Below are positions 4,496 to 61,916 of a DNA stretch of 64,000 bases, piece by piece (positions within the stretch are counted from its first letter, which is position 1; every line of letters starts with the position of its first letter). The translations under genes and the position numbers were made by a program. Under the pieces are notes generated by a model. It made no database searches. It was not told the DNA's origin and worked only from the letters and a program-made list of their open reading frames with translations. This stretch comes from Beverwykella pulmonaria (lineage: Eukaryota > Ascomycota > Dothideomycetes > Pleosporales > Melanommataceae), in contig BCHH01000018.1 of assembly GCA_001599595.1 (NCBI GenBank), positions 520,258-584,257 on the forward strand. The letters are read 5' to 3'.

Positions 4496-6716
4496 TCAAG
4501 AGAGTTTCAGCACGGGCAAATCCACCAAATGCAACTTCGCGCCACCCAAGGGTTCTAACTTGACGCTCTTCGCATTTCCAATGCATTTCCTATCCTCCCC
4601 CGTAGGCGGTGCATCGGGCACGCCCTTGAAAATTCCCCACTCAATCTCGCACCCCATCGCTTCGATCCAGACTGGACTCGCACCCGGCTCAAAGATCGGG
4701 CTGGGCAGTCCCGTCACGTTGGAAGTTCGAACAACCAGCGTGTCTGGGTCAATCGCGTAATTCCATGCAGATTCATTGTGATACTGGTGATCTCTTGATT
4801 GCACGGGCGCATACCCACCAGGGAGGAAGTCGTTGCCGCCATTTCCGAACGCTTTCGGAGCGGTGGAGACATTTGAGGAGGGGATGGCGAGCGCGAAGAC
4901 GAGAGCGCCGTGATGGATGGCGATCGTGTCGTTTGCGCGGGGTTCCTGGATGATGCCTGGGTTGCCGATTGTGTATACCACCTTTGAAGTCCCAGCTGGG
5001 ACTGATATCTTGTGCAATCCCGTATGGCTGTTTGGAGTGACACCGGACGTTGAATCACCAATGATGACAGTGGTTTTCAATACGTCGGCCCATGCGGGAA
5101 CGCGGATGTAGAAGTCGAACGAGGAATTTGCAGTGATACTATAGGTGAGTGTATCACTAAACGGGTAGTCGGTCTCACAGTCCACCTTCGTTCCTCCAAT
5201 CTGCACACTGCCCGGCGCCAAAAGTGCATGCGCGATCCCAGTATCCGCAACACTGACATACATCGCGGCTGCAAACTTCGGATACCCCTGCGGATGATTC
5301 ACTGTGCAACATGGGTAGTCTACCTCGAGGCCATATGACTGGCCCCACGAATTCACGTTCCAGAATGGAGTATTGGACAAGTTCTCTGCGTATGGTTGAT
5401 TAGGCTGCGAGACGTACTGCCGCGCCCACCAGTCAGGTGTGAGCTGCACGGGGAGCGCATTAAAAGCTGTCTTCTCGCAGCGGTCTGCATAGCTCGCATC
5501 ACCGAGGGCTTGGTACAGATAGGAAAGCGAGTACATGGTCTCCACGAGTGTGCAAGTTTCAGAGCCGTAGTAGGGTGCGAGACCAGCGAGCCGCTCGTCG
5601 GCGAGAATTGCACCAGAGGCCGCGCCGTGGTATTGAAATGTCCAGTCCACGGCGTCTTTTGTCGCTTGGACAAGCGAGTCGTTGTGCGTAAAGCGGCGGA
5701 ACACGGCAAGCGCTTTGAGGCCCTGACCGACGTTCACGCCGTGTTCATATGGGAAGAGCGGTTCTGTCTCGCTGATCGGGAGAGTGTTCAGGTCCTGTTT
5801 GATGTACGTGGTCGGATTGTACCAGTCAGCCCAATTGAGCGAGCCTTTGATCAGAAGATCCATGTTTTCAGCAAGTTGTGTCGAGTTCTGACCATCGGAG
5901 TGGGATTCGTATAGCCATTGGAGTGTGATCAGCATATCCTGGACACGAACGCGACCCCTACGATCAGAGTCAGTATTCATAGTTTCGACACATAAAATGA
6001 GGACAAATACCATTGCTCATCACCCTGTTGCATCTGATCGCCATCATGATAGTGGTAACCGGTATAATTGTCCCTCAGCATGCTGTTCATTAACCCTGAG
6101 AACTTCCACAGCGCATCCACAATCTTCCCTTCATACGCTACTTCTGCCTCTGCCATCTGCATTAAGCCGAGGAAGAACGGCATCCTTCCCCAGAAATTCC
6201 TCTCCGTGCCGATCTCAGGCCCCAACCACCCATCATCTTGCTGATTAGCTAGAACAAAGTCCGCAGCACTGTGCACCTGGTCGAGCAGTCTCAGGTCGTC
6301 AAGTGTATACGCAAGAGGGACAAGACCATTAAACCAATACGGGAAACCTTCGCGGAGAGAGGAGTATTCCTTGGTGCCACCGAGCCAAGTAGAGTGCGCG
6401 ACGTAGTCATAGAAGTCATGTTCGTGGCCAGCAAGTCCGTTGGCGGAGAGTGCAAGTTGATCCTTGAGCCAGCCTGAAGGTCTTATAGAGCCCAAGGGTA
6501 GTGGTTGGAACGCGAGCGGAACCACTGGAAGGGTTAGACAGGCACAAAAGAAGTGCCAGAGAGTGATTGGGACTTGAGCATAGACAGGGGAGAAGAAAGA
6601 AAGAAAGAAAGCATATGCTATCAGAGGCCAACTTAACAAAAGAATTAAACCGTACAATTGCGGGTACCTTGCGCCCCACCTCCCAACGCTATAATAGCAA
6701 CACACCATCTCTTCAT
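4496..6716 (-). CDS. Secreted GH127/DUF1680 beta-L-arabinofuranosidase
   Basis: Exons 6716-6668, 6524-6011 and 5957-4496 join to 674 aa. Intron 1 is 143 nt and intron 2 is 53 nt, both GT..AG. The ATG at 6716 gives a short signal peptide ([16 protein letters not shown]) that splices directly into the conserved entry motif of the family ([15 protein letters not shown]). Three zinc/catalytic elements known from bacterial GH127 are visible: GSETC at about 320-323 (Glu and Cys) and the Cys-Cys pair in YPCCTVNH at about 404-405. In the family, one of these cysteines is the nucleophile. The (alpha/alpha)6 barrel fills the first two thirds, followed by beta-sandwich regions. Expected role: removal of beta-L-arabinofuranose from arabinan or hydroxyproline-rich wall glycoproteins outside the cell. 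Substrate is inferred from family only. Confidence 0.88.
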
Positions 6717-14341: not shown

Positions 14342-14404
14342 TGTAACCAAAAAGACGTCTTGAATATATATTTCTAGAATAGACATATATGTATACTGCT
14401 TACA
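14342..14404 (-). repeat. Solo 63-bp LTR (family 1) with AATTG duplication
   Basis: 63 bp running from TGTAACC to GCTTACA and flanked on both sides by AATTG (14337-14341 and 14405-14409). The sequence is nearly identical to the two terminal repeats of the complete element at 31294-32168. A lone LTR between a perfect 5-bp duplication is what remains after recombination between two LTRs. The strand given is the sense inferred from the primer-binding site of the complete copy. Confidence 0.88.
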
Positions 14405-20000: not shown

Positions 20001-23000
20001 TCAACTGGGTTGGCTCGTCTTGTATTTTCCAAACCTCCTTCATTACCTGGTGAGAAGCCTCGAAGTTCTCCATCCACATTTCTTGAAACCTTTCTCAAGC
20101 TATATTAGAAGAAATTTTCGATTTCTCTGCGACTGAGTCTCGCAGTTGGCTATGAAAGCTGACCAAGCGGATCCAGGCCCCTGTTTGCCTTGAGATACGA
20201 TCATGAAGTCGAAATCTCGAAGTGCCTTTACTACAGAATTAACGTGACCCTGTAAAATAAGAGGGTTGACGTTTCTGATCCGCCGATAGAACAGAATGAC
20301 GAGGGCTTTGTTCATAGCTTGAAGCATGTGGTGGTTGAGTTGACTCGGGTCAGAGGAGCTTGGAGAGTCGTCTGCATCTGCATCGCCCTCGTCATTAGTC
20401 GGATCATTGAGGGCAAAAGAACAGATTATGTTCTCCAGGCATCGTTCCCAATAGTCGGTCCGACTGTTAGTTACTGTTACTAACAGTCGGATTCCTGGGC
20501 AGTCGGTCAGTAAGGGGACCCCCCTCCGTAACTGACTGATGGATGAGGCTGTAGTTACTGCAGTAACTGGCCTATACAGACTTTTTATTGGTGTTGCGGC
20601 TGGAGATGAGACCTGCCAAGGGCGCCGGTGATAAGCTGTGGAGATTTGATGCCGGATTCGTCAAATCTCCATAATAAACTCAACTCTCTCTCCTGGTCAC
20701 AGCCCGAGACCCTTCAATATGAGGTCCTTCTTGACGTCCTAGAATCGTACGCCTCGTCACCCGACGCTGTCGTCCCGCCGTCTCGAGAAGGCAAGGGCGA
20801 CCTCGCCAACACCCTCTATGTCCTCCTCCATTGTTTCGTTGGGCCCAACGCCCTCAACGCCCAAGGCTCCAGCCAAGTCGCTCTTGAAAACCTTCCCCTG
20901 CAAAGTGGGCCAGAACAACCGCGTTGAGTTCCCAGTGGAATGGGGCAATATACACTACGCCAACAAGCCCCTGCTTGCGTTGCAGGTGGGATATTGGGTG
21001 CGGGACCTAAACGAGCTTACAGCTCACATCTTTGCTAGAGGGATATTTGAGGATATGGACGAAAATTTGGGGTTTACGACTCCAGTTACTCCAGTAACTA
21101 CACCCTTCAGTTACGGAGCTATTATGTAGTAAGCCGTTACGGTAGCCCTCAGTTACGGTACCCCCCTGTCCCCCCATCAGTCGGTCGGTCGGGCGAAGAC
21201 GTTTAGTTACGGCTTCAAATGTATACAATAGTTACTAGTAACCGACTATTGGAAACGATGTCTCCAGGCACCCCGCACGTCTTTGCAGGAAGTCGAGGAA
21301 CTCCATATCAGTCTCTTTCCTATACCTCCATGAATCCAGAATGTTGGCCAATCGAGTAGTCTGAGATACCAGAGTCAGCCACGCCTCAGAAATTCCATAA
21401 ATATGGTACATGGTATCTCTGAAGTGACGTGAGTCCTCCAGATGAACGTCATGCAGTCCATCCGTGTCTTTCGGTTCGTCGATGTCTAGATCGCAACCCG
21501 AAGAATGCGGTTAGAGTCTAAGGAAGTCGTCGAGACATACATAAGGCCTGAGCCTAGATCGGGCGATCGCTGTTCGTTGTTCATGACTTCCGTGTAGTCG
21601 ATCGGCCCGATATAAAGCATTCATGTTGTCGACTACTGGCGCGTAGCCTTCATAATCATGTAGCACGTAAGTGCTCTCTCCCACGATGCGTATCCAAGAG
21701 TAGACGTGATGTAGGAGACGACATTTTCAAGGAATTTCTCGCTTGGCTAGACCTTGCAAGAGACGCCCTGCATCTAGTAGCATCTTCCGTCCTTTGATTG
21801 CAGGAATGCTCTAGCAATGCCATCAGTCTATATCTTGGTTTGGACCTTGCATGTGAATCTACCGTGAATGCGAGCATGTTGAGGGTAGCCATAAGCTGTT
21901 CTTTGTACTTCGCTTTTTTGAACCCTTTCAGCTCGTCTCGCAATGAAGTTTGCAGGTGTCTCTTCGCTCTTTCCTTTAATAACCCGGATAGGTTTCCCAG
22001 TAGCCATTAGTTTCACTAGACTCGCCCGATGAGCTAACTGAAAAATGGTAGGTCGAGCAAACCATCAATGCGTATAGATTAGCAACATTGGCGTGATCCA
22101 AGATTCCAGTATGTAGATACGTCAGATCCGACAATGTGCGCATAGCCTCCGACAACTGCAGGATTGACCAAGGAGACTTTGAGTTGAATGGCACAAAGGA
22201 TATCTAAGGAATCACCGGATCATGAAAGTGTTTCAATAGAAACAGAGCTTCCGTGCCAGATTTGACATTGGTAACGGCTATCGGAATTGTGTTTGGTGTT
22301 ACACCTGTTATATGCATCGGAACCTCTTTTAACGGAAAAACACCGTAAAGGGGGAGGATCTCCCATGTTCGGTTCGGCATCTGGCTCAACGTTCCGGAAG
22401 TCCGTATCTGGAGGGTCGAACTCGAATGTACTATCGAAAATGAAATCGGAATGAGGTGTGGCTTGAATTTACATCAGCAGAACGTTTCTAGCATCAAAAT
22501 CAACTCCAAAAAGATCGGTCCAACGTGCTGTCGGACCAAGGATCGGATCAAACCAGTCTATAGCCTGGAGCTGATCGAATTTGCTGTACAATCTCAATAG
22601 CAGAATCTGGTGGATTTGGATTGACAAGGGGAGCCTAATTCGTTTGCAGTGATGGTACTGGAGGAGCGTCACAAGGTGCAGGTCCTATATCGAGCACCTT
22701 GAAAGGTCCCACAGAAATGTCTGCATGGTTTTTGACTTGAGCTTCTTCGGTTAAAGCATCGATTTTTGCGAGTGATCCGTCAACCAAAGCCGAGCCAAGC
22801 TCTGTGACAAGTGCTGTGCTCATCAACGCTCGCGACTCCTCTTAAATCAACAATCAGAGCACAAACTCCTTTGCCGCAGCTACAGACTTACCAAAATAGG
22901 GATAATACCTTGTTGTTTTCCTAGTGCATTCATCCTCTCCAACCTGTGTCGTGTCTGCTAATACTAGGGTGGTCAGGGCATCCATCGCACGTCGGAAGCG

Positions 23001-29476: not shown

Positions 29477-30477
29477 TCAAAGGTCAACATCGTTCACTAA
29501 AGCCGCCCAATACATCAGCCCTTTGGCTCCCTCTCTGAAATATCGCTCATCCATTTCCCGTTCATTGGGAAAGAACTTCAGGTTAAGTGCCTGCCAATGC
29601 TGGTAGTCCAGTTTTCCTCTCAGTGAACGTGCGTGATGTTGAAGGCTATTGAAAGTCGGATCATCAGAACACAGAAAGTCCATGCCAACATCTCGCAACG
29701 TTTGTGTAACAAGAGCCTCGTTATACGTAAACGTTCCAACTGAGCCTGTGGCTGGGATTTTTTTCTTGTGGGTGTATGTGAAATTGGGAAGAATGATTCG
29801 CACGGAGGCTTTTAGGTGCTGGTCGCAGAAGGATGTGATTTGTATGTGATCTTTCAGAAACAATCCTTGGAGGAGGAACTTCTAAGGTTGGTGATTTCTA
29901 TAAAACTCATAGTGTAGTGGCGATAGCGATTTTGTTCAGCCAGTCAAGTTTGGCGGGCGTACAGATCTGGGCGAACTCGAGGAACTGAGGGGCTGCTTTT
30001 GTCTCTTTGAATGTTTTCATCGCAATGTAATTTCGTTGAATTGGAGTTAGAAACCCATAGTCTATTTGTACAAATGCTTGCAAGCATACTTGAGAAATAT
30101 TGAATTCGTACGCGGCAACAAGTAATTTTCTGTCCAGATCGCTTGGATATAGAATGATCGTCTTTCGAGTCCTCGAGTTCTTTCCTCTTAGTTCCTGCTT
30201 CTGGTATTGTAGGCCGTTCGGTTTATTCTACAGGTCGAATTTGAATATTTTATTCCGCAGTTCGGCTGGGAGTTGAAGGACCGAGGGCGATGAAAAGGGA
30301 CTAAAGTTTGGAGGAGTCGTAGTCTCTAGAAGTTGGGTGTCATGAATGGTACGTGGGGTGGGTGGGAGGAGCACAAGGCTCTTGAAAGCTGCGGGTTTGG
30401 TCGTATCTGCGTGGGGCGAGGGTGTGACGACAAGGATCTGAGGCCGTCAGGGACCGCAGATGCAGTACTGTCGCTGT
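29477..30477 (-). pseudogene. 2EXR-like fungal protein, probably broken
   Basis: Read on the minus strand, a frame around 30290 contains LQLPAELRNKIFKFDL, the N-terminal signature of the large fungal 2EXR/F-box-like class. It is followed at once by an in-frame TAG (about 30227), then about 100 more codons (QKQELRGKNSRTRKTIILYP, LTPIQRNYIAMKTFKETKAA). A second frame, 29863-29477, carries the C-terminal part (ASVRIILPNFTYTHKKK, ALVTQTLRDVGMDFLC, GLMYWAALVNDVDL). No good donor/acceptor pair bridges the two parts, so both a stop and a frame break are present. No molecular function is known for this class. Intron-based rescue of the stop cannot be fully excluded. Confidence 0.55.
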
Positions 30478-30948
30478 ATTAAACCCATTCACCGAGCTGC
30501 AGGCTATTCACCATGTTGTCTGGAATGCACCTATGCGCGAGGAGTTGGGAGCTTCGTGGGTGAGATGGGATGAGGCGGTGAATTGATATTATAGCGCGGG
30601 GTCATCGATGAGGCTATAGGACACTGTCAATTCTGGGTTGTTGACTCGCCAGATCACAACGCATACAAATACTAGAAAAATTAAATATTTCCGTCGTCCA
30701 TGTGAATATCTGCTGTGAATATCTGTTGTTAATATATTGTGCGAGTAAATTCCAGACTTCTAATCGATTGTGGTGTAGGTTCTTCGTCCAGAAAAGAATT
30801 CACCACGATAAATGCTCTCACGAAGGCCGAATCACCACTTCTTCCAATTTTATCTGATACCCATCATGTGAGTTTCAACCCGACCAAATCCTTGGTCCTG
30901 GCATCTTGTACTTCATCAAATCCACCCTGGATACAATATCTGGCGTAA
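30478..30948. other. Intergenic, no gene recognised
   Basis: 471 nt between the 2EXR-like relic and the 3' end of the AA9 gene. AT-rich around 30660-30740. No repeat or gene seen. Confidence 0.4.
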
Positions 30949-32850
30949 TCAAAACACCTGCATAATATTAATGATAGCCTCATTCAATTCTTCCAGTGAC
31001 ATTTTGAATAGTGACATCATACCTGGATCATATTCATCAAATGCACCAGGAAATTTCACCGTTGGACCCGGAGTACTTCCACCTCCTGGCCCAACAAGCT
31101 CAACTTGTGCACAACTGGCGTACAGTTGAGTCTGGTTGAGCACAGTCTTTGGGTATATACCATCTGCTCGCAAGAGATAAAAGCCGGGTGGTGTAGTGGC
31201 AGGGATGGTGAAATTGAACTGAAGCTTGTGTCAGAAACATTTGTGTCATATTCTTTCAGAGCGTCCAGGTAGCGGATGCAAGAAAGCTGACAATGTAACC
31301 AAAAAGACGTCTTGAATATATATTTCTAGAATAGAGATATATGTATACTGCTTACACACACCCCTCAGTTTTGAACACTTGAAGCTGATGTGATCAAAGG
31401 CCATCCTCTACCTTTCTCAGGCAGAGCTGCAAATTTGTGGGTCTGTCCTGCTGTAGTACAGGCCTGTCAACCACTGCTGGTGCAGTTCCAGATTGGCCGA
31501 TCGATATTTGCTTTCGCGTTCTGTATGGAGGTTGACGTGGGCATTTTAAATGTTTTTTGGTGGCAAAAGCTCGCTTATGGTGCCTCACCCATGTACCAGT
31601 CCTCGCCAACGCTGCTTCTATTTATCACTCCGGCCTGCAGGAAGTAGGTAGTTTGGTTGTGGAACGCTTGTATTGGGGGCCAGAGCTCGTCTCGCCTCAC
31701 GTAATTGACCGATAGGCTCGTACTCAGGCTCGTGATAGGCCCCGTGAGCGTTGTGCTTGCCTTGAAGCTTGCCGTGAGCTTAGCAAGACAGGCCTATCAG
31801 AGTAGAGATAGTAGAGCTTCTCTATCGATCAGTGAGGTGTTGATCCCCCTGAACGGAGACCGAGACGAAGCTGGGAGATGCTATCTAAAAAACAAAAACA
31901 AAAAACAAAGCTAAAAGGGACGGCGGGTGGGTGATTCAAATCGTCGATCAAGCGTCGCGTGAGAGGCTTGATGAGATGAGCTCACATGAGGTGGATGTGA
32001 TGAGGCTGAGATATCTCGTCGCGAGAATTCTTGTAGATGAGGTTCTTGGCAGCCTAACTGTAAATAGAACAATACATAAATGCGGAGACGGTCCGGGCTC
32101 ATAACTGTAACCAAAAAGACGTCTTGAATATATATTTCTAGAATAGAGATATATGTATACTGCTTACAGACAATATACTTCACTGAAACGAATCGGTGGA
32201 TCCCACAGGTTGAACCCCCTTGTCTTATTGTACGGGCCCATCTCTGCTATCTTGAAGTAATCTCCATCTCCGTCCCAACTCTTCAGGCCATCCGCAGTCT
32301 GTTCGGGGCTTTTGCTGAGATATGCGAACAATGGGCCGTCGTGGAACGCCGTATCTCCAATCTAATATACTCGTAATATTAATAAACCCATCAACTACAG
32401 GAGTATCTTAATACTAACCCGGACATTCCAAAATCCAGGACGAAATTCGATTTTAGATCCTGCAATAACTGTCGCGATATCGGAATTATGACCTGTGAGA
32501 GTGCCATTCCGGCCGCAACGATAGTCAATCGAGTGGATGTTGTATATGGGGAATACTAGTGTGTTGTTTGCCGATTCTGGTGGATTTCTCGCGAGGAAAT
32601 CTGGGTCTACCACTAGAGTGTATCTGGACGGAGACGTGTGAGATCTACAAGCACCTGGTTTTAAGATGTGCGTAGTGAGTTTACCGGACATATTTCCATT
32701 GGTCATATATTGTGTCGTTTATGATCAATCGACCGAATGAGTCTAAGGTATGTCAGACAGAGACTTGGTTTAAAGATGAGAGGGCGGACAGTGAGCTGAC
32801 GAGATTCGCAAAATGAAGAAATTGAGGAGCCGGAACACCATGGACTTCAT
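30949..32850 (-). CDS. AA9 lytic polysaccharide monooxygenase, TRIM in intron 4
   Basis: Five exons, 32850-32790, 32742-32685, 32644-32419, 32361-32179 and 31218-30949, join in frame to 265 aa. The signal peptide ends ISSA and leaves His20 as the mature N-terminal copper ligand (HYSFGRLIINDTIYDQW). The second copper histidine is His122 in AFHDGPLFAYLS. The axial Tyr is in QLYASCAQVELVG (Gln207, Tyr209), and the disulfide partner lies in IDYRCGRNG. These are the AA9 (former GH61) hallmarks, so the protein should oxidatively cleave cellulose or related glucans outside the cell. Intron 4 is 960 nt because an 875-bp LTR element plus a 5-bp duplication landed 5 nt after its GTATA donor; without it the intron would be 80 nt. 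The coding exons remain open, so the gene may still work if the long intron is removed. The C-terminal 20 residues are atypical. Confidence 0.82.
31294..31356 (-). repeat. 3' LTR of the TRIM element (63 bp)
   Basis: Second terminal repeat of the element, same sequence and direction as the one at 32106-32168, preceded on the sense strand by the purine tract CTGAGGGGTGTG. Confidence 0.88.
32082..32104 (-). promoter_or_regulatory. Primer-binding site, half-tRNA(iMet) type
   Basis: One base after the 5' LTR the sense strand reads TTATGAGCCC, complementary to the anticodon stem-loop of eukaryotic initiator tRNA-Met. Internal tRNA-fragment priming of this kind is known from Copia-class elements. 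The match beyond the first ten bases is imperfect. Confidence 0.7.
32106..32168 (-). repeat. 5' LTR of the TRIM element (63 bp)
   Basis: On the minus strand it runs TGTAAGCAGTATACATATAT to TTTTTGGTTACA. It has TATA-like runs and a TTCTAGAA palindrome at its centre. With the following G the ends read GTAAGC..TTACAG, the form of a fungal intron. Confidence 0.88.
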
Positions 32851-33435
32851 GGTCAGTTTTCTTTGGGTCATGAATTTTGAACTAAAATTGAAGTTGAGGC
32901 AGATCTTTCAGCCTTTTATTCACCGAGACTTGTGCTTCTGGCTCGCTGCTGCATGATCAACTTGTAGTTGCATATCTCGCGCGATATTTCATGTAGTTCA
33001 TTGTAGGCTATTATCCTCCACTTCAAGTTCATCAATACTCATATAACGAAGCCAATCAGGAAAATTCCAGCGCCATTTTTTAAAGCGCTAGGCTGACTGT
33101 AGGGTCACTCATTGAGTACATTTTGATCAAATACATCCTATTGAGAGTGAGGCACGCCAATTCTTAGCTAGCTGACAAAGTGGATATGTACCAATATTAG
33201 TGTGGAAGAATCTTAGTTCCTTATATCCGTTACAGTATCTGGAGCTACAATTTCTTCCTAGGATATCTCTATATCACCTAAATGCTAGACCTACCCTCGG
33301 ACTGGTTGGCCCTGACCATACAATCTTCTACAATGGACTAAACTGCCTAGACTTTTAATATTCCATCGCAATACTTCGTGCAAGATGTTAGTTCTTTTTT
33401 ATAGGTAGCTAGAGATTTAGAAAAGATGGAAAAGA
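32851..33435. other. Upstream region of AA9 gene
   Basis: 585 nt of non-coding AT-rich sequence with no recognisable gene. It ends with AAAGA, the left duplication of the adjacent solo LTR. Confidence 0.4.
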
Positions 33436-33568
33436 TGTAAGCTGGAGGGCGGAGGAGAAGGTGTCAAGATGTGTATTGTATGTGATGTATGTACAGCTGA
33501 TATATATATATGACGGACTGATTAGTCAGTGGCATGTCCACGTGACATTATGGTGTCCTCGGCTTACA
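33436..33568 (-). repeat. Solo LTR (family 2, 133 bp) with AAAGA duplication
   Basis: Runs TGTAAGC to GCTTACA and is flanked by AAAGA (33431-33435 and 33569-33573). It shares a long core with 59242-59386, including CAGCTGATATATATATA and CGGACTGATTAGTCAGTGGC, then CCACGTGAC. Sense is inferred from the purine tract beside the related LTR at 40586-40722. Confidence 0.88.
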
Positions 33569-36475
33569 AAAGAAGAGCTGGAAGACCGCAAAAAGGGAAT
33601 CAGATATCACGTGACACATGTAATTTCTTGAGGTAGTCAATGATCTAAGAAATCAATGTATATATAAGGCGTGTGGAGGCAGTTTCCAGCTGATAGCTCG
33701 CAGGAGGACTATATATACCCATGTCAGGGGAGCTAACTAGAATGGCAGTGGCTGGATACATGGAACACGTGACACAAATGTCGGGCAAAGTCAACGATAT
33801 CTAGAACCAGCTATTCTACAGTGAAGATTAGTATTTAGGAATTCGAAAATGATGCTTCCGCTTTGAAAAAGCCGCTTGACTGGCCAAACCATCTTCGCAC
33901 ACATCATTCAGTGCAAAAGTATTGCTATTCTATGCCATTTCAAAGGATGCGAGAACAAGTGGCCCAGTTACGGGAAAGTGGGCGTCACACCAGAGTATTT
34001 CACTTACGTGAGATAAGCATATTATATCCGAGGAGAGATTCTCTTGCGGGTTTTGCTGGAACACAAACCAAGCCACGTCCCACCACGTTCTCTTTGAAAC
34101 CCAGCCTTAATCTTCATCCACAGAGCGTGTCCGTCAAACATACAACCAAAGTTACACGAATCAATCCTCCAGATCTGGTTACTGAACTCAAGGATGCTCA
34201 GCCCTGGAACCCAAGAGACAACTAAGAATAGCCACCCAATCTCCACTTCCGCATGAGCAAAGTCACGGTCTTCGCCACGCCCTGGGTTACCTCTATACGA
34301 GAGCCTTCCCCCCCCCCTTCCCCAGCTCATCGACGTCGACGGGAAGCTTGATTAACTCGATGGGGATCTTAACTGTGACAAATTAAACGATGGTTTCGAC
34401 ATGAAGTGACGGCTTCTGCTGCTCCTAAATGACCTAACTTGTCATACCCATCCTTTCTGATTGCCACGAAAAGTAAGTAGTCAGAGTTTCAAATGCTCAC
34501 CTGTACGCATCAAGTATATAAATTGCCGGGCCAGGTTTTATTAGTTTGCCTAATGTAAGCGAGAGCTGTGTTCGGCATTAGCAAATCAGCGATCGCGGAA
34601 TCTTTCATAATGTCGCAGCGGCCATCTTGCAACTTCATCTACCTCCACCATCAAAACGAACCATATGGCTTTACATCTCGCCCCGATTTCTCTATCTTCT
34701 CCGTTGGTGGCTTGCGATACGAATTGGAGGCAGCAATTTCCTGTCATGAGACATCTACGTAATCCGCCACAACCTTGGCGCCTTTTGAAAAGCCTCAGCG
34801 CACTTCAGCTACACCTCCTTCGTCCTAACACTTCGTTCCACAAAGAACATCTTAACACATACGAATAAATGACTAGACATACTTATCGGTAAGACAGCCA
34901 GATCTTGCGTGCCATCTCCTCAGCACAACGTTATCATTGGGTTCGCCACAAAATGGTAGGCTGTTCCGTCTACCTTGACATGCAGGCAGATAAACCTGGA
35001 GGCTACCTCCAGGCGACATACGTTCGGCTTTCTTGTATGCTTGCTTCGAAAAACTGCATATCCTGATCGTCGCTGGCCTGGCAGAACTTGTGAACAAGGA
35101 TACAATGTCTAGACCCGACATGTACGTTTCATTTCACGGCAGTGACCTTGTAAACTTGGCGGTTGTTATATCGCGGAAGCGAGGCGTTGTACAGAGAGCT
35201 AACTGTAGATCTCACGTTCCATATCACCGAAGATAAGACTGGTCTAACAGATCTCAAGAGCTACAGGTTGTTCTATACTCCTAGACTAGTTATTGATCAG
35301 CTAATCACAACTACTGGAATTTTACTCGTAAACCTGGAGTCACCACACATCACCCGAACGATAACGTCATGGATCTACAGCTGCTATGCAGACTACTATC
35401 ATTACGATTGTCAAGAAGACCTAGCAGGAAAGATATAGTGAGCACCTTTCCTACTGATCGTTGTCGGAAATGAGTTGATATCTGTGACACGGTTGAGAGT
35501 GGAGAATGCCTCCGGTCTATCAGAGACCCCAACGGAATGGTTTTAGGTGGTATCCTTTTGATTGCAGCCCCTCTGCTGGAAGTGAAGCTAACGAGGGGCA
35601 CAAATAGACTGGCTAAGTGCCTACTCGCAATGAACTCGTGCTTTAACTAATTCGGACCTGACGTCTCTCTGGAAGACGTTTCCGACGCTGCTGCAGAAGA
35701 ACAATTGATCTTTATTTATTTTTGCGTAACTCAGTTATCGAGAGCTGCGAAATCAACTCGAGACGTCGAGATATTTTTATCTGTGAATGAACCAAATTTC
35801 GGAGACCATATCTTGGTAATGCCAAATTTTCAAGGATTAGAAGCGATTGATCACAAGTTCGAGTCGGGGGCCTCGTACACCTTAAGTCTCTCTCACAGGT
35901 AACTAAAACTCCCTTTCCTGCGCATTCGCAATTGCGCCATATATATCTTCTTAGGCATTAACAAGTGTCTATGGACCCGTGGAGCACCCGCATCTCGGTT
36001 AGGATATGCGATATCGGCTAGCAGACAAAGAGACCCCGCCCTGATGTTGTTTTACGAGAACGATTGGCTATCGTATTCGCCTATTTAGGTGTGCCTTCAC
36101 CAAGCATATGCAACCAACCCGCCCAACAGAATCTCGCTTCGCCACGTCCAGAATGCCTAGACCTTGCTTACATCCTCGCCCTTTCCCCGGTCATCGGTAT
36201 CCACACAGATGCTCAATATTGGAGGCTAAGAAGTGGCGGTTCGGCAGTACCTATCTGTCCGCACTTCTGCCCTGAACTGCATGCGGTCAGCTCTTGGCAT
36301 CTGCTCATTGGTAAATGCTAGCGCAATTTGGGCGGAGCATCCTTGAGCAATAGTACAGCTCAGTACTTCTCAATGCTAGGCTAGAAGTCTTGGTCTGCAG
36401 GCAGTGACAATATAAAAAGGCCATATGCAAGGACCCGTCTCCTCTAGTTGTCATCGATATACTTCGCTCGTCACA
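33569..36475. other. 2.9 kb without a recognisable gene
   Basis: Plus-strand frames of 120 codons (33863-34225), 91 codons (35163-35438) and 65 codons (35705-35902) have no family motif. Two CACGTGACACA strings about 155 bp apart (33608 and 33765), with TATA-like runs between them, suggest another eroded LTR, but I could not find matching flanks. The right end is the promoter of the berberine-bridge oxidase. Confidence 0.4.
36411..36418 (+). promoter_or_regulatory. TATA box of berberine-bridge oxidase gene
   Basis: TATAAAAA stands 58 nt upstream of the ATG at 36476. Close spacing and a consensus sequence make this a good core-promoter candidate. Confidence 0.55.
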
Positions 36476-43320: not shown

Positions 43321-43385
43321 TGTAACTAAAAAAACGTCTTAATTATATATTTCTAGAATAAACATATATATGTATATTGCTTATA
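43321..43385 (-). repeat. Degenerate solo LTR, family 1
   Basis: About 65 bp aligning throughout with the 63-bp LTRs but with C-to-T and G-to-A changes (GTAACT for GTAACC, AAAAACG for AAAGACG, ATTGCTTATA for ACTGCTTACA). Flanks ATAGC and ATACC differ at one base. Older than the other copies. Confidence 0.75.
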
Positions 43386-48609: not shown

Positions 48610-49431
48610 CATCTTTTCCAATAGTCGGTTACTAGTAACTATTGTATATACATTTGAAGCCGTAACTGAACGTCTCGCCCGACCAACCGACTGATTGGGG
48701 GACGGGGGGTTACCGTACCTGAGGGCTGCCGTAAAGGCTTACTACACAATAGCTCCGTAACTGAAGGGTGTAGTTACTGGAGTAACTGGAGTCGTAAACC
48801 CCAAATTGTCGTCCATATCCTCAAATATCCCTCTAGCAGAGATGTGAGCTATAAGCTCATTTAGATCCTGCACTCGATATCCCACCCGCGACGCGATCAG
48901 GGGCTTGTTGGCGTAGTGTATATTCCCCCATTCCACTGGGAACTCAACGCCGTTGTTCTGGCCCACTTTGCGGGGGAAGGCCTTCGAGAGCGACTCGGCC
49001 GGAGCCTTGGGCGTTGAGGGCGTCGGGCCCGACGAAACAATGGAGGAGGACATAGAGGGCGTCGGCGAGGTCGCCCTTGCCCTCTCGAGACGGCGGGACG
49101 ACGGCGTCGGGTGGCGGGGCGTACGATTCTGGGACGTCAAGAAGGACCTCATATTGAAGGGTGTCGGGCTGTGGCCAGGAGAGAGAGTTGAGTTTATTAT
49201 GGAGATTTGACGAATCCGGCATCAAATCTCCACAGCTTATCACCGGCGCCCTTGGCAGGTCTCATCTCCAGCCTCAACACCAATAAAAAGTCTGTATAGG
49301 CCAGTTACTGCAGTAACTACAGCCTCATCCATCAGTCAGTTACGGAGGAGGGTCCCCTTACTGACCGACTGCGCAGGCATCTGACTGTTAGCAACAGTAA
49401 CTAACAGTCGGACCGACTATTGGGAACGATG
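48610..49431. mobile_element. Non-autonomous hAT-type element, copy 2 (inverted)
   Basis: 822 bp, the reverse-complement counterpart of 20440-21260, with an exact 8-bp duplication GACTACTG (48602-48609 and 49432-49439). On the minus strand an uninterrupted 136-codon frame (49152-48742) ends inside the element. In copy 1 the same frame is cut by a TAG where copy 2 has CAG. Internal sequence is strongly similar, with scattered C/T differences. It lies between the third receptor gene and the HET relic and interrupts no gene I can see. Confidence 0.9.
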
Positions 49432-59241: not shown

Positions 59242-59386
59242 TGTAAGCAGGGGTGAGGATAAGAGAGGGTATGAAGAAGTGCATTGTATGTCTGTATGTG
59301 TGTGTGTGATATGTACAGCTGATATATATATATAACGGACTGATTAGTCAGTGGCATATCCACGTGACGGTAGTGTCCTGCTTACA
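59242..59386 (-). repeat. Solo LTR (family 2, 145 bp) with GAGTC duplication
   Basis: Runs TGTAAGCAGG to CTGCTTACA and is flanked by GAGTC (59237-59241 and 59387-59391). It shares a nearly unbroken core with 33436-33568 and has an extra TG-rich stretch (TGTATGTGTGTGTGTGAT). Sense inferred as for the other family-2 copies. Confidence 0.9.
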
Positions 59387-59904: not shown

Positions 59905-61916
59905 ATGGGCAAAGACTCCCTCAACTTCTCCAACACCTATCTCTCACCCACTACAATGGCCACAATAGGGCCCTCCGCAATTGGAGTCCTCGTTATTGCG
60001 CCTATCTCCGCCATCCTTCTCCACGAGGTGGTTTTAAAGCGCGTCGAAGTCGCCCATTTGACTCTCCAACTCCTCGCAACTTCTACTGCGGCGTTCTGGC
60101 TCGTGGTCTACTATGTTGGGTTCGCGTTTGCAAGATTGACAGCCATGGCATTCTTTATTCCGTTGTGGCTCTGCATATTACTGTACCGCGCGTTCTTCCA
60201 TCCGCTGAAAGACTTCCCCAGTCTGGTTGGTGCCCGAATTTCGAAATGGTGGACTGTCAAGCAGGTGTTGAGTTCCAACTTGCACTGGCATCGGGTCCAG
60301 CAAGACTTGCAGGAAGAGTATGGCGATTATGTACGGACGGGCCCAAGAGAACTTGCAATATTTGACCCAGCAGCTATTCAACAGCTTCTGGGGTTCAAGT
60401 CGAAGACAACAAAGGGTCCGTTTTATGATGTCATGGAGACCAGTCTCCATCTGAACCGCGACAAAGTCTTCCATAGGTAGCGAAGGAAGATTTGGGATAA
60501 CGCGATGAAAGATTGTGTGTATTCCTCAACTTCCAGGATTAGCCATGTACTGTAAACTGACGCATTGTAGCCCTTTCGGAATATGCGCCACATGTAGAAG
60601 AGTTCACTTCGCAGCTTCTGACCCGGCTTCGACAGGCAGATGGAGAGCCAGTACCGCTCCTCGAATACTGTGTTTATTACAGCTACGATGTAATGGCCGC
60701 CCTGGCCTTTGGAAAGCTAATGGGCTTTGTTAAAGACGAGTCTAGCGATATTGCAGAGAGTATCCTACGCAAGTTCACCGATGGTCTTGATGTCATGGGT
60801 GTGCTATACCATATTCCGTGGTTCATGAACGCAATCGGTATCTTGACGTTACTGGCAGGACCACTCAAACAGTGGGCGGACTGGTCCCAGCAGCAGATGA
60901 GAGAACGTATGGCGGTATGCATTCCCGCTTCTTAGGCGACAATTGAGTGGAGATTGACAGAGTGTTGAATAGGTCAGAGACCCTAAACCCAATCTCTTTA
61001 TGCATCTTATTCGGAACACACCACGTAATTTCAAAGGCGACGCATTGCTCTTTGGCGAATCGCGACTGATTATCAGCGCTTGTAGCGAAACTACATCGAC
61101 TGCCCCGACATTCATCTTCATGCAGCTTGCTGTTCACACAGAGTACCTCCGAGGCATTCGAACAGAGTACCGCGATTCGGAATCTTCATACTCTTGTTTA
61201 CGCCCCTCACCACTCCTCGACGCTGTTATCCATGAGTCCATGAGGTTGTAGCCCTCCGTTTTCTTTGCTCCACAGCGAGTTGCTCCACCAGAAGGCATGA
61301 CCATCAATCGGCACTTAATCCCAAGGAACACTATCATCTCAATACCACCGTTTGCGCTTAACCACGACCCACGGAATTTTGAGCAGCCCGTGGAGTTCAT
61401 ACCAGAAAGATGGACAACAAGACCAGAGCTGGTACTGAATAAGAGTGTGTTTCTTCCATTCTCAACGGGTCCATACAACTGCGTTAGGAAGGGATGGAAT
61501 TTTTGTTACCTGAAGGATTTGACCAGGAGGTACGGAGGTGCCTTTCAAAAGTTCTTGCCCACCTTGGCGAGCAAGGGTATGGAGTCCATGCGTCACCGCC
61601 TTCAAGTTGCCCAAGCACCCTGCCCAGCGATGGGGATTATGCCGCCTGTCTTTTGGGGGCTCAGCGCCTGCAGAATAGCGCCTACAGCCCAGCCTAAAGG
61701 CAGGTAGCCCCCGTAGCATAGGCGGGTAGGCGCCGCAGCTCGGCGCCCCCTTTCTGCCGGCAAAATCTGAATCTGGAGGCGGTGACGCATGGACTCCATA
61801 CCCTTGCTCGCCAAGGTGGGCAAGAACTTTTGAAAGGCACCTCCGTATATTTCAGCGGGATCAAGGATCATTTCACAACTGGCCCTCCAAATCAGATGGT
61901 AAGTGTCCCTACGTAG
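59905..61916 (+). pseudogene. Cytochrome P450, inactivated
   Basis: The N-terminus has three hydrophobic segments (from 59905 or 59956), then RAFFHPLKDFPSLVGARISK, the substrate-recognition region and RKIWDNAMKDSLSEYAPHVE across an intron. The I-helix motif survives as ISACSETTSTA, then the ExxR helix DAVIHESMRL, the PERW segment FEQPVEFIPERWTTRP and the haem loop FLPFSTGPYNCV. Lesions: TAG at 60478-60480 (family has a codon for Q or similar before RRKIW), TAG at 61249-61251 (normally Trp after SMRL), the first residue after the haem Cys loop altered with the helix that follows deleted, and a 313-bp MITE inserted just before the C-terminal YFSGIKDHFTTGPP. Both stops can arise from C-to-T or G-to-A changes. 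Resembles P450s of fungal secondary metabolism. Dead. Confidence 0.87.
61533..61845. mobile_element. Mariner-type MITE with 69-bp inverted repeats
   Basis: 313 bp with perfect 69-bp terminal inverted repeats (61533-61601 and 61777-61845; outer ends CGGAGGTGCC / GGCACCTCCG), flanked by TA on both sides (61531-61532 and 61846-61847). TA duplication is the Tc1/mariner hallmark. The 175-bp interior is GC-rich and non-coding. Taking the element and one TA out restores the P450 C-terminal frame (EGFDQEVYFSGIKD). Perfect arms suggest recent insertion, or recent inversion-type repair. Confidence 0.88.

Follow-up and report, generated by a model that had tools for sequence, protein, structure and literature searches.

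The window analysed here is a 64,000-nt stretch of the Beverwykella pulmonaria genome (C18:520258-584257; assembly of 45.6 Mb in 31 contigs), and it contains a short LTR element. Two direct repeats of 63 bp with TG..CA ends, as the initial annotation had described, agree at 63 of 63 positions (31294..31356 and 32106..32168, both on the minus strand), and an exact 5-bp duplication, GACAA, stands outside them on the left (31289..31293) and on the right (32169..32173). The primer-binding site, GTTATGAGCCCGG (32093..32105, minus strand), abuts the LTR at 32106, which sets the element on the minus strand, with its 5' LTR at 32106..32168 and its 3' LTR at 31294..31356, and a plus-strand reading is rejected. 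On the element strand the LTR ends read TGTAAGC...GGTTACA. Adjoining the 3' LTR is a purine-rich tract (31357..31368, minus strand), CTGAGGGGTGTG in the window copy and CTGAGGGGGGTG in other copies, which is near-identical at the same position in the Copia partner described below and would serve as the plus-strand primer. An ORF scan of the site found no stop-to-stop frame of 120 aa or more across 29881-33839, and Rfam and tRNA scans of the 64-kb window returned no matches. With short TG..CA repeats, a 5-bp duplication, a primer site, a purine tract, no coding capacity and multiple copies, the element is a TRIM; the miniature LTR element first proposed for this site is borne out both by this structure and by four further complete copies.

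The TRIM lies within a gene of the AA9 family of cellulose-oxidising enzymes. PF03443 is matched on both sides of it, downstream at profile positions 128-195 with 51.4 bits, above the cut-off of 27.8, and immediately upstream at 76-117 with 24.3 bits, below that cut-off; a third match, further upstream, is weak (13.7 bits, E 0.057). Frame and splice signals would place a 960-bp intron at 32178..31219 on the minus strand, in agreement with the location inside an AA9 intron given by the initial annotation. Without the element and one duplication this putative intron would measure 80 bp and carry the signals GTATAT...CTGAC...CAG, and the insertion point would fall at its nucleotides 6-10, leaving GTATA intact.

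The 749-bp interior had been described as non-coding, which agrees with the ORF scan, but it is not one unit. Positions 31617..32076 are a nested repeat of 460 bp that is not TRIM sequence and is dispersed on its own, and we therefore rejected the reading of the interior as a single unit. This repeat occurs in at least 40 places in the genome, the window included, at 90-100% identity and in part as partial copies (the best 40 of 166 candidates), and its ends are shared: the first base is the same in 19 of 19 fetched copies and the last base in 18. It has an asymmetric inverted repeat, TCTATTTA at one end and TAAATAGA 8 nt from the other; the 19 copies have unrelated flanks and no target duplication, and a T follows the repeat in 15 of them, the preceding base being variable. 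In its asymmetric inverted repeat and lack of target duplication it resembles the Helitron2/HINE elements as characterized in Fusarium (PMC5148889). Its 90-100% identity across the places listed suggests that it was perhaps recently active. Because this separate repeat sits inside the window copy, the undisturbed TRIM interior is shorter than 749 bp, and without the repeat the window TRIM is 415 bp long. The near-identity of the LTRs had been taken to imply a young insertion, an argument that proves weak: zero differences over 63 bp give a 95% upper bound of 4.6% divergence, and with LTRs this short and another repeat since landed inside, a recent insertion is weakly supported.

By the initial annotation's own test, the element would be refuted if no further complete copy had 5-bp flanks unlike its own; a genome search with the TRIM sequence found four (L053, L038, L054 and L055) with four other duplications, so that all five complete same-LTR copies, the window copy among them, have perfect and mutually different 5-bp duplications. 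The four undisturbed complete copies measure 415, 422, 423 and 435 bp, and the two LTRs of L055 are not identical. Solo LTRs are abundant as well: among the best 40 of 63 LTR candidates, 11 are parts of elements or fragments and the other 29 solo, with a perfect 5-bp duplication at 27 of the 29 (L089 has none and L093 matches at 4 of 5 bases). Fragments of the TRIM lie at C15:40868, C21:459077, C5:756746, C1:4390911, C3:180627 and L077. The family thus stands at a minimum of five complete same-LTR copies, one TRIM with mixed LTRs and 29 solo LTRs examined, all copy counts being lower bounds because the genome DNA searches score the best 40 candidates; L095 and L096 were used solely in the LTR search. 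In solo LTRs L025/L046 and L048 the 5' flank closes with a sequence resembling an LTR tip (TTACATAC), as might result from insertion beside another LTR.

Within the window itself, a 20-base LTR probe has four matches at up to three mismatches, against none in 100 shuffles. LTR probe matches include a solo TRIM LTR with the duplication AATTG (14342..14404, minus strand; L032) and a diverged LTR copy with flanks ATAGC/ATACC and without a perfect 5-bp duplication (43321..43385, minus strand). The window also carries an approximately 820-bp repeat in two opposite orientations (20440-21260 and 48610-49431; the principal 757 bp agree at 94%), a 317-bp unit at 61531-61847 whose 74-bp inverted ends are 99% complementary and which is possibly a MITE, and a minus-strand gene at 4496-6016 that is GH127-type by its matches, the top named ones including Lophiotrema nucula at 77% and Paraphaeosphaeria sporulosa at 76% identity.

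How might such an element be primed and copied? Two tRNA-Met genes of the host have an anticodon arm that complements the TRIM primer site at 13 of 13 positions, and by their features these genes look like initiators. The idea that the site by itself fixes the initiator tRNA as primer was dropped because the same 13 letters occur at three other fetched near-match sites that ARAGORN did not call. The primer would be the 5' half of a tRNA-Met, probably the initiator. Drosophila copia is known to use a tRNA half as primer at an internal site. For the fungal FunCo1 Copia elements, the primer site is described as complementary to an internal stretch of tRNA-Lys (PMC5445492).

A 185-bp piece of the TRIM 3' end that takes in the purine tract and the opening 7 bp of the LTR is present, at 84-90% identity, in 21 fetched elements (L056-L076). 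These end in an LTR unlike that of the TRIM, measured in three cases at 131, 133 and 134 bp. Of the 21, 18 have an RVT_2 match no more than 0.9 kb away; in L059 the match is at 2.5 kb, and L070 and L071 have none near (none of these three has one within 1.6 kb). The presence of RVT_2 in the same elements makes the partner family one of Copia type. Genome-wide there are 56 RVT_2 matches, 51 of them with stops, a count that includes other Copia families. A stop-free match at C9:1437012, within an open frame of 1493 aa, belongs to a member of the partner family whose 133-bp LTRs are identical, which is flanked on either side by GGAAT and which shares the TRIM's 13-nt primer site. The two families have in common the LTR tips TGTAAGC/TTACA, the primer site, the purine tract and about 180 bp of 3' interior, and their LTRs are otherwise unlike. 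The Copia-type partner with matching LTR ends and primer site that the initial annotation envisaged is therefore present as a candidate with the right primer site and LTR tips, but its LTRs are different; an autonomous element with 63-bp LTRs was not found among the best 40 of 95 candidates or with a junction pattern allowing up to three mismatches.

The partner has left traces in the window too, where repeat comparison identified a 133-bp solo LTR with the duplication AAAGA (33436..33568, minus strand); a solo LTR of a related type, 145 bp with the duplication GAGTC, lies at 59242-59386. Three relatives with a different leader (C2:620495, C2:2981053 and C4:963997) look like a further subfamily. 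L079 (C2:620495 to about 622300) and L078 (from C4:963997) represent a relative of about 1.8 kb with a Copia-type LTR, its own leader and ATCAATC-like repeats inside, perhaps a second non-autonomous derivative. The ts/tv ratio from pairwise sums, in which pairs are not independent, is 5.0 at the Copia pol end (L056-L076) vs 1.7 in the TRIM. The Copia value is a transition excess of the sort RIP would leave; the contrast hints that the Copia partner suffers RIP and the TRIM less so, and RIP may pass over short elements. RIP indices did not cleanly separate TRIM from Copia copies.

Two of the insertions found, and only two, join the families directly, each with one LTR from each family and a perfect 5-bp duplication. 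L052 (C4:1453219-1453700) reads GGTAG, a 131-bp Copia LTR, TRIM leader and interior, a 63-bp LTR, and GGTAG again. The other extends on C5 from 2407472 (L027) to about 2418600 (L076) and begins with AAGAC, a 63-bp LTR, and the Copia leader and gag; inside gag sits a nested LTR element, itself flanked by a duplication (CTACT), after which gag continues (L081 vs L082), and the insertion ends with the Copia 3' interior, a 134-bp Copia LTR (L076) and AAGAC. The middle of the C5 insertion was read in part, and its continuity rests on the continuation of gag, an RVT_2 match at C5:2416752 and the AAGAC duplication. In both insertions the foreign LTR is the 5' one and the interior agrees with the 3' LTR, with the families in reciprocal order. 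A census of 5' junctions (49 sites, up to three mismatches, classes sorted by hand from the matched letters) gave 9 TRIM/TRIM, 27 Copia/Copia, 3 of the related subfamily and 8 other, together with one Copia LTR on a TRIM leader and one TRIM LTR on a Copia leader. At 29 3' junctions, sorted by a few letters on each side with a pattern that missed L055, we counted 6 TRIM/TRIM and 23 Copia/Copia (C21:6075 being uncertain) and none mixed. Two swaps among 38 classified 5' junctions against none among 29 at the 3' side is too small a sample and does not prove asymmetry.

The interiors are also mixed. Over 27 diagnostic events, the window copy, L038 and L052 (with one event unassigned) read TRIM-Copia-TRIM, and the Copia-like middle part includes an 18-bp deletion; in the window the Copia-type block spans 31400..31477 (minus strand) between its outermost diagnostic sites, with positions set by hand. 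The TRIM type was defined by L053, L054 and L055, chosen after looking, and the Copia type by 21 Copia rows. The 27 events are a manual collapse in which the 18-bp gap counts once and single-base gaps are included, two gaps being alignment-dependent; the first six "indel" columns were left out as an artefact of where rows were cut. For 17 and 10 events, the chance of three or fewer runs in the window copy is about 3e-6. At the ten middle events the outgroups show the TRIM state at 7 (L078, L079) or 6 (L077), so that the direction of transfer was likely, though not certainly, from Copia to TRIM.

We consider it likely that the TRIM is non-autonomous and is copied by proteins of the long-LTR Copia family in the same genome, and that co-packaging of the two RNAs, template switching and an intermolecular second transfer gave rise to the mosaics and the mixed LTRs. 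The priming, the helper proteins, the co-packaging and the strand-transfer step are what we infer from sequence; the mixed-LTR insertions and mosaics bear only indirectly on transposition in trans by an autonomous Copia element. The TRIM RNA would be primed by the 5' half of tRNA-Met on the 13-nt site and copied by the Copia proteins; TRIM and Copia RNAs would at times be packaged together, and switching between the co-packaged templates would yield mosaic interiors. The second (plus-strand) transfer would sometimes proceed onto the cDNA of the other molecule, and each family would then contribute one LTR: the plus-strand strong-stop DNA from one element would anneal, at the primer site, to the minus strand of its counterpart, which would give a foreign 5' LTR, a prediction we derived from the standard reverse-transcription scheme as laid out in PMC5651808. 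Recombination at the first transfer yields hybrid LTRs, as recounted for Onsen (PMC5668417), unlike the whole 5' LTR swaps seen here. For HIV, the introduction of PMC5651808 treats second-strand transfer as generally intramolecular, and its abstract argues that either route is possible. On balance, and with some reserve, we lean towards regarding the two insertions as reciprocal fossils of intermolecular second-strand transfer between elements with unlike LTRs, mediated by the shared 13-nt primer site, with LTRs as exchangeable modules. In the predicted fold of the shared 3' interior, 0 of 37 pairs carry a two-sided, compensatory change, so that a packaging signal in that part is unproven.

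An alternative that we regard as unlikely is that the TRIM owes its mobility to an autonomous element bearing 63-bp LTRs like its own, now extinct or missing from the assembly, and that the mixed-LTR copies are unrelated accidents. The TRIM leader, about 110 nt counted from the primer site, matches only TRIM copies and fragments among the best 40 candidates scored, the body of the TRIM LTR is unlike that of the partner, and the partner copies are mostly decayed, as the 51 of 56 RVT_2 matches with stops indicate with other Copia families counted in. Yet the 63-bp LTR appears at only 1 of 28 Copia-leader 5' junctions, in an element that itself ends in a Copia LTR, and it is with the Copia partner that the TRIM has recombined and has its 3' interior, purine tract and primer site in common. 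That the repeats are a chance pair or a segmental duplication, with only their shortness to recommend it, is hardly credible and already refuted by the four other complete copies with different duplications, the tRNA-Met primer site, the purine tract and the solo LTRs with duplications of their own.

Gene conversion, too, can produce internal mosaics. Ectopic conversion between integrated copies, with no part for reverse transcription, could explain the mosaic block taken alone, and very short homology is available to it, as TGTAAGC and TTACA plus the primer site are common to both LTR families. To convert a whole LTR, however, crossovers would have to fall within the 7 bp of TGTAAGC and within about 18 bp (TTACA plus primer site) while leaving host flanks and duplication intact, and the swapped LTR is the 5' one in both cases, matching the prediction of second-strand transfer. 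We therefore judge conversion improbable as the source of both features, and for mosaic blocks and mixed LTRs together template switching appears the simpler explanation.

On our best reading, this TRIM family is a new one of a kind already known, and what is unusually direct is the evidence for its helper. LTR swapping between autonomous and non-autonomous partners has reportedly been seen in soybean, to go by the title of a 2010 study by Du et al., and would likewise be an exchange of LTRs between such partners. FRetro129, a SMART of grasses, is presented as a non-coding element of 292 bp with TGT..ACA ends, 85-bp LTRs and 5-bp duplications, and its candidate partner FRetro64 as sharing the interior (96%) and the primer-site and purine-tract motifs, with just an 11-bp motif in the LTRs (PMC3281118). 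The TRIM is similarly a short non-coding element whose partner shares interior but not LTRs, and differs in its fungal host, its 63-bp LTRs and the mixed-LTR insertions that link it to its partner; solo LTRs outnumber complete copies here, whereas the account of FRetro129 gives 27 complete to 8 solo (PMC3281118). The LTRs, called unusually short by the initial annotation, are short but set no record, as the plant TRIM CcaRetroS9 is published at 233 bp with 52-bp LTRs; plant TRIMs of this sort match the fungal one in size class, structure and location in genes, but their larger relatives are credited with LTRs shared at 79-98%, whereas the Copia partner shares LTR tips only (PMC4717578). The remark that TRIMs are rarely reported in ascomycetes was overstated, since Cochliobolus heterostrophus has non-autonomous TRIMs, 7 of 9 of them Copia-related; these are likewise ascomycete and mostly Copia-related, and mixed-LTR insertions are not among the features described in that account (PMC4112212). 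Template switching between co-packaged RNAs is invoked for Onsen recombinants in Arabidopsis, with hybrids inside the LTRs via the first transfer (PMC5668417), for Ty1/Ty2 hybrids (PMC4022208) and for three-LTR complexes in Triticeae, where intact duplications are likewise taken as support for one integration (PMC1950507). As these sources present them, such hybrids lie within LTRs or in coding regions or involve a third LTR, and arise between close relatives, unlike the exchange of whole dissimilar LTRs at the 5' end seen here. A single insertion with two unlike LTRs and one duplication was not found in the open-licence literature searched, which is weak evidence of absence.

TRIM helpers are as a rule deduced from sequence similarity. 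In this case, LTRs of both families within one insertion, bounded by a single intact duplication, point to the two elements having shared a reverse-transcription complex, and the shared LTR tips, 13-nt primer site, purine tract and roughly 180 bp of 3' interior mark what may be needed for copying in trans. Reciprocal mixed insertions offer a genomic test of intermolecular second-strand transfer. If this account is true, LTR-divergence dating would be misled by mixed LTRs, and the LTR of a parasite can end up driving its helper, or the helper's LTR the parasite.
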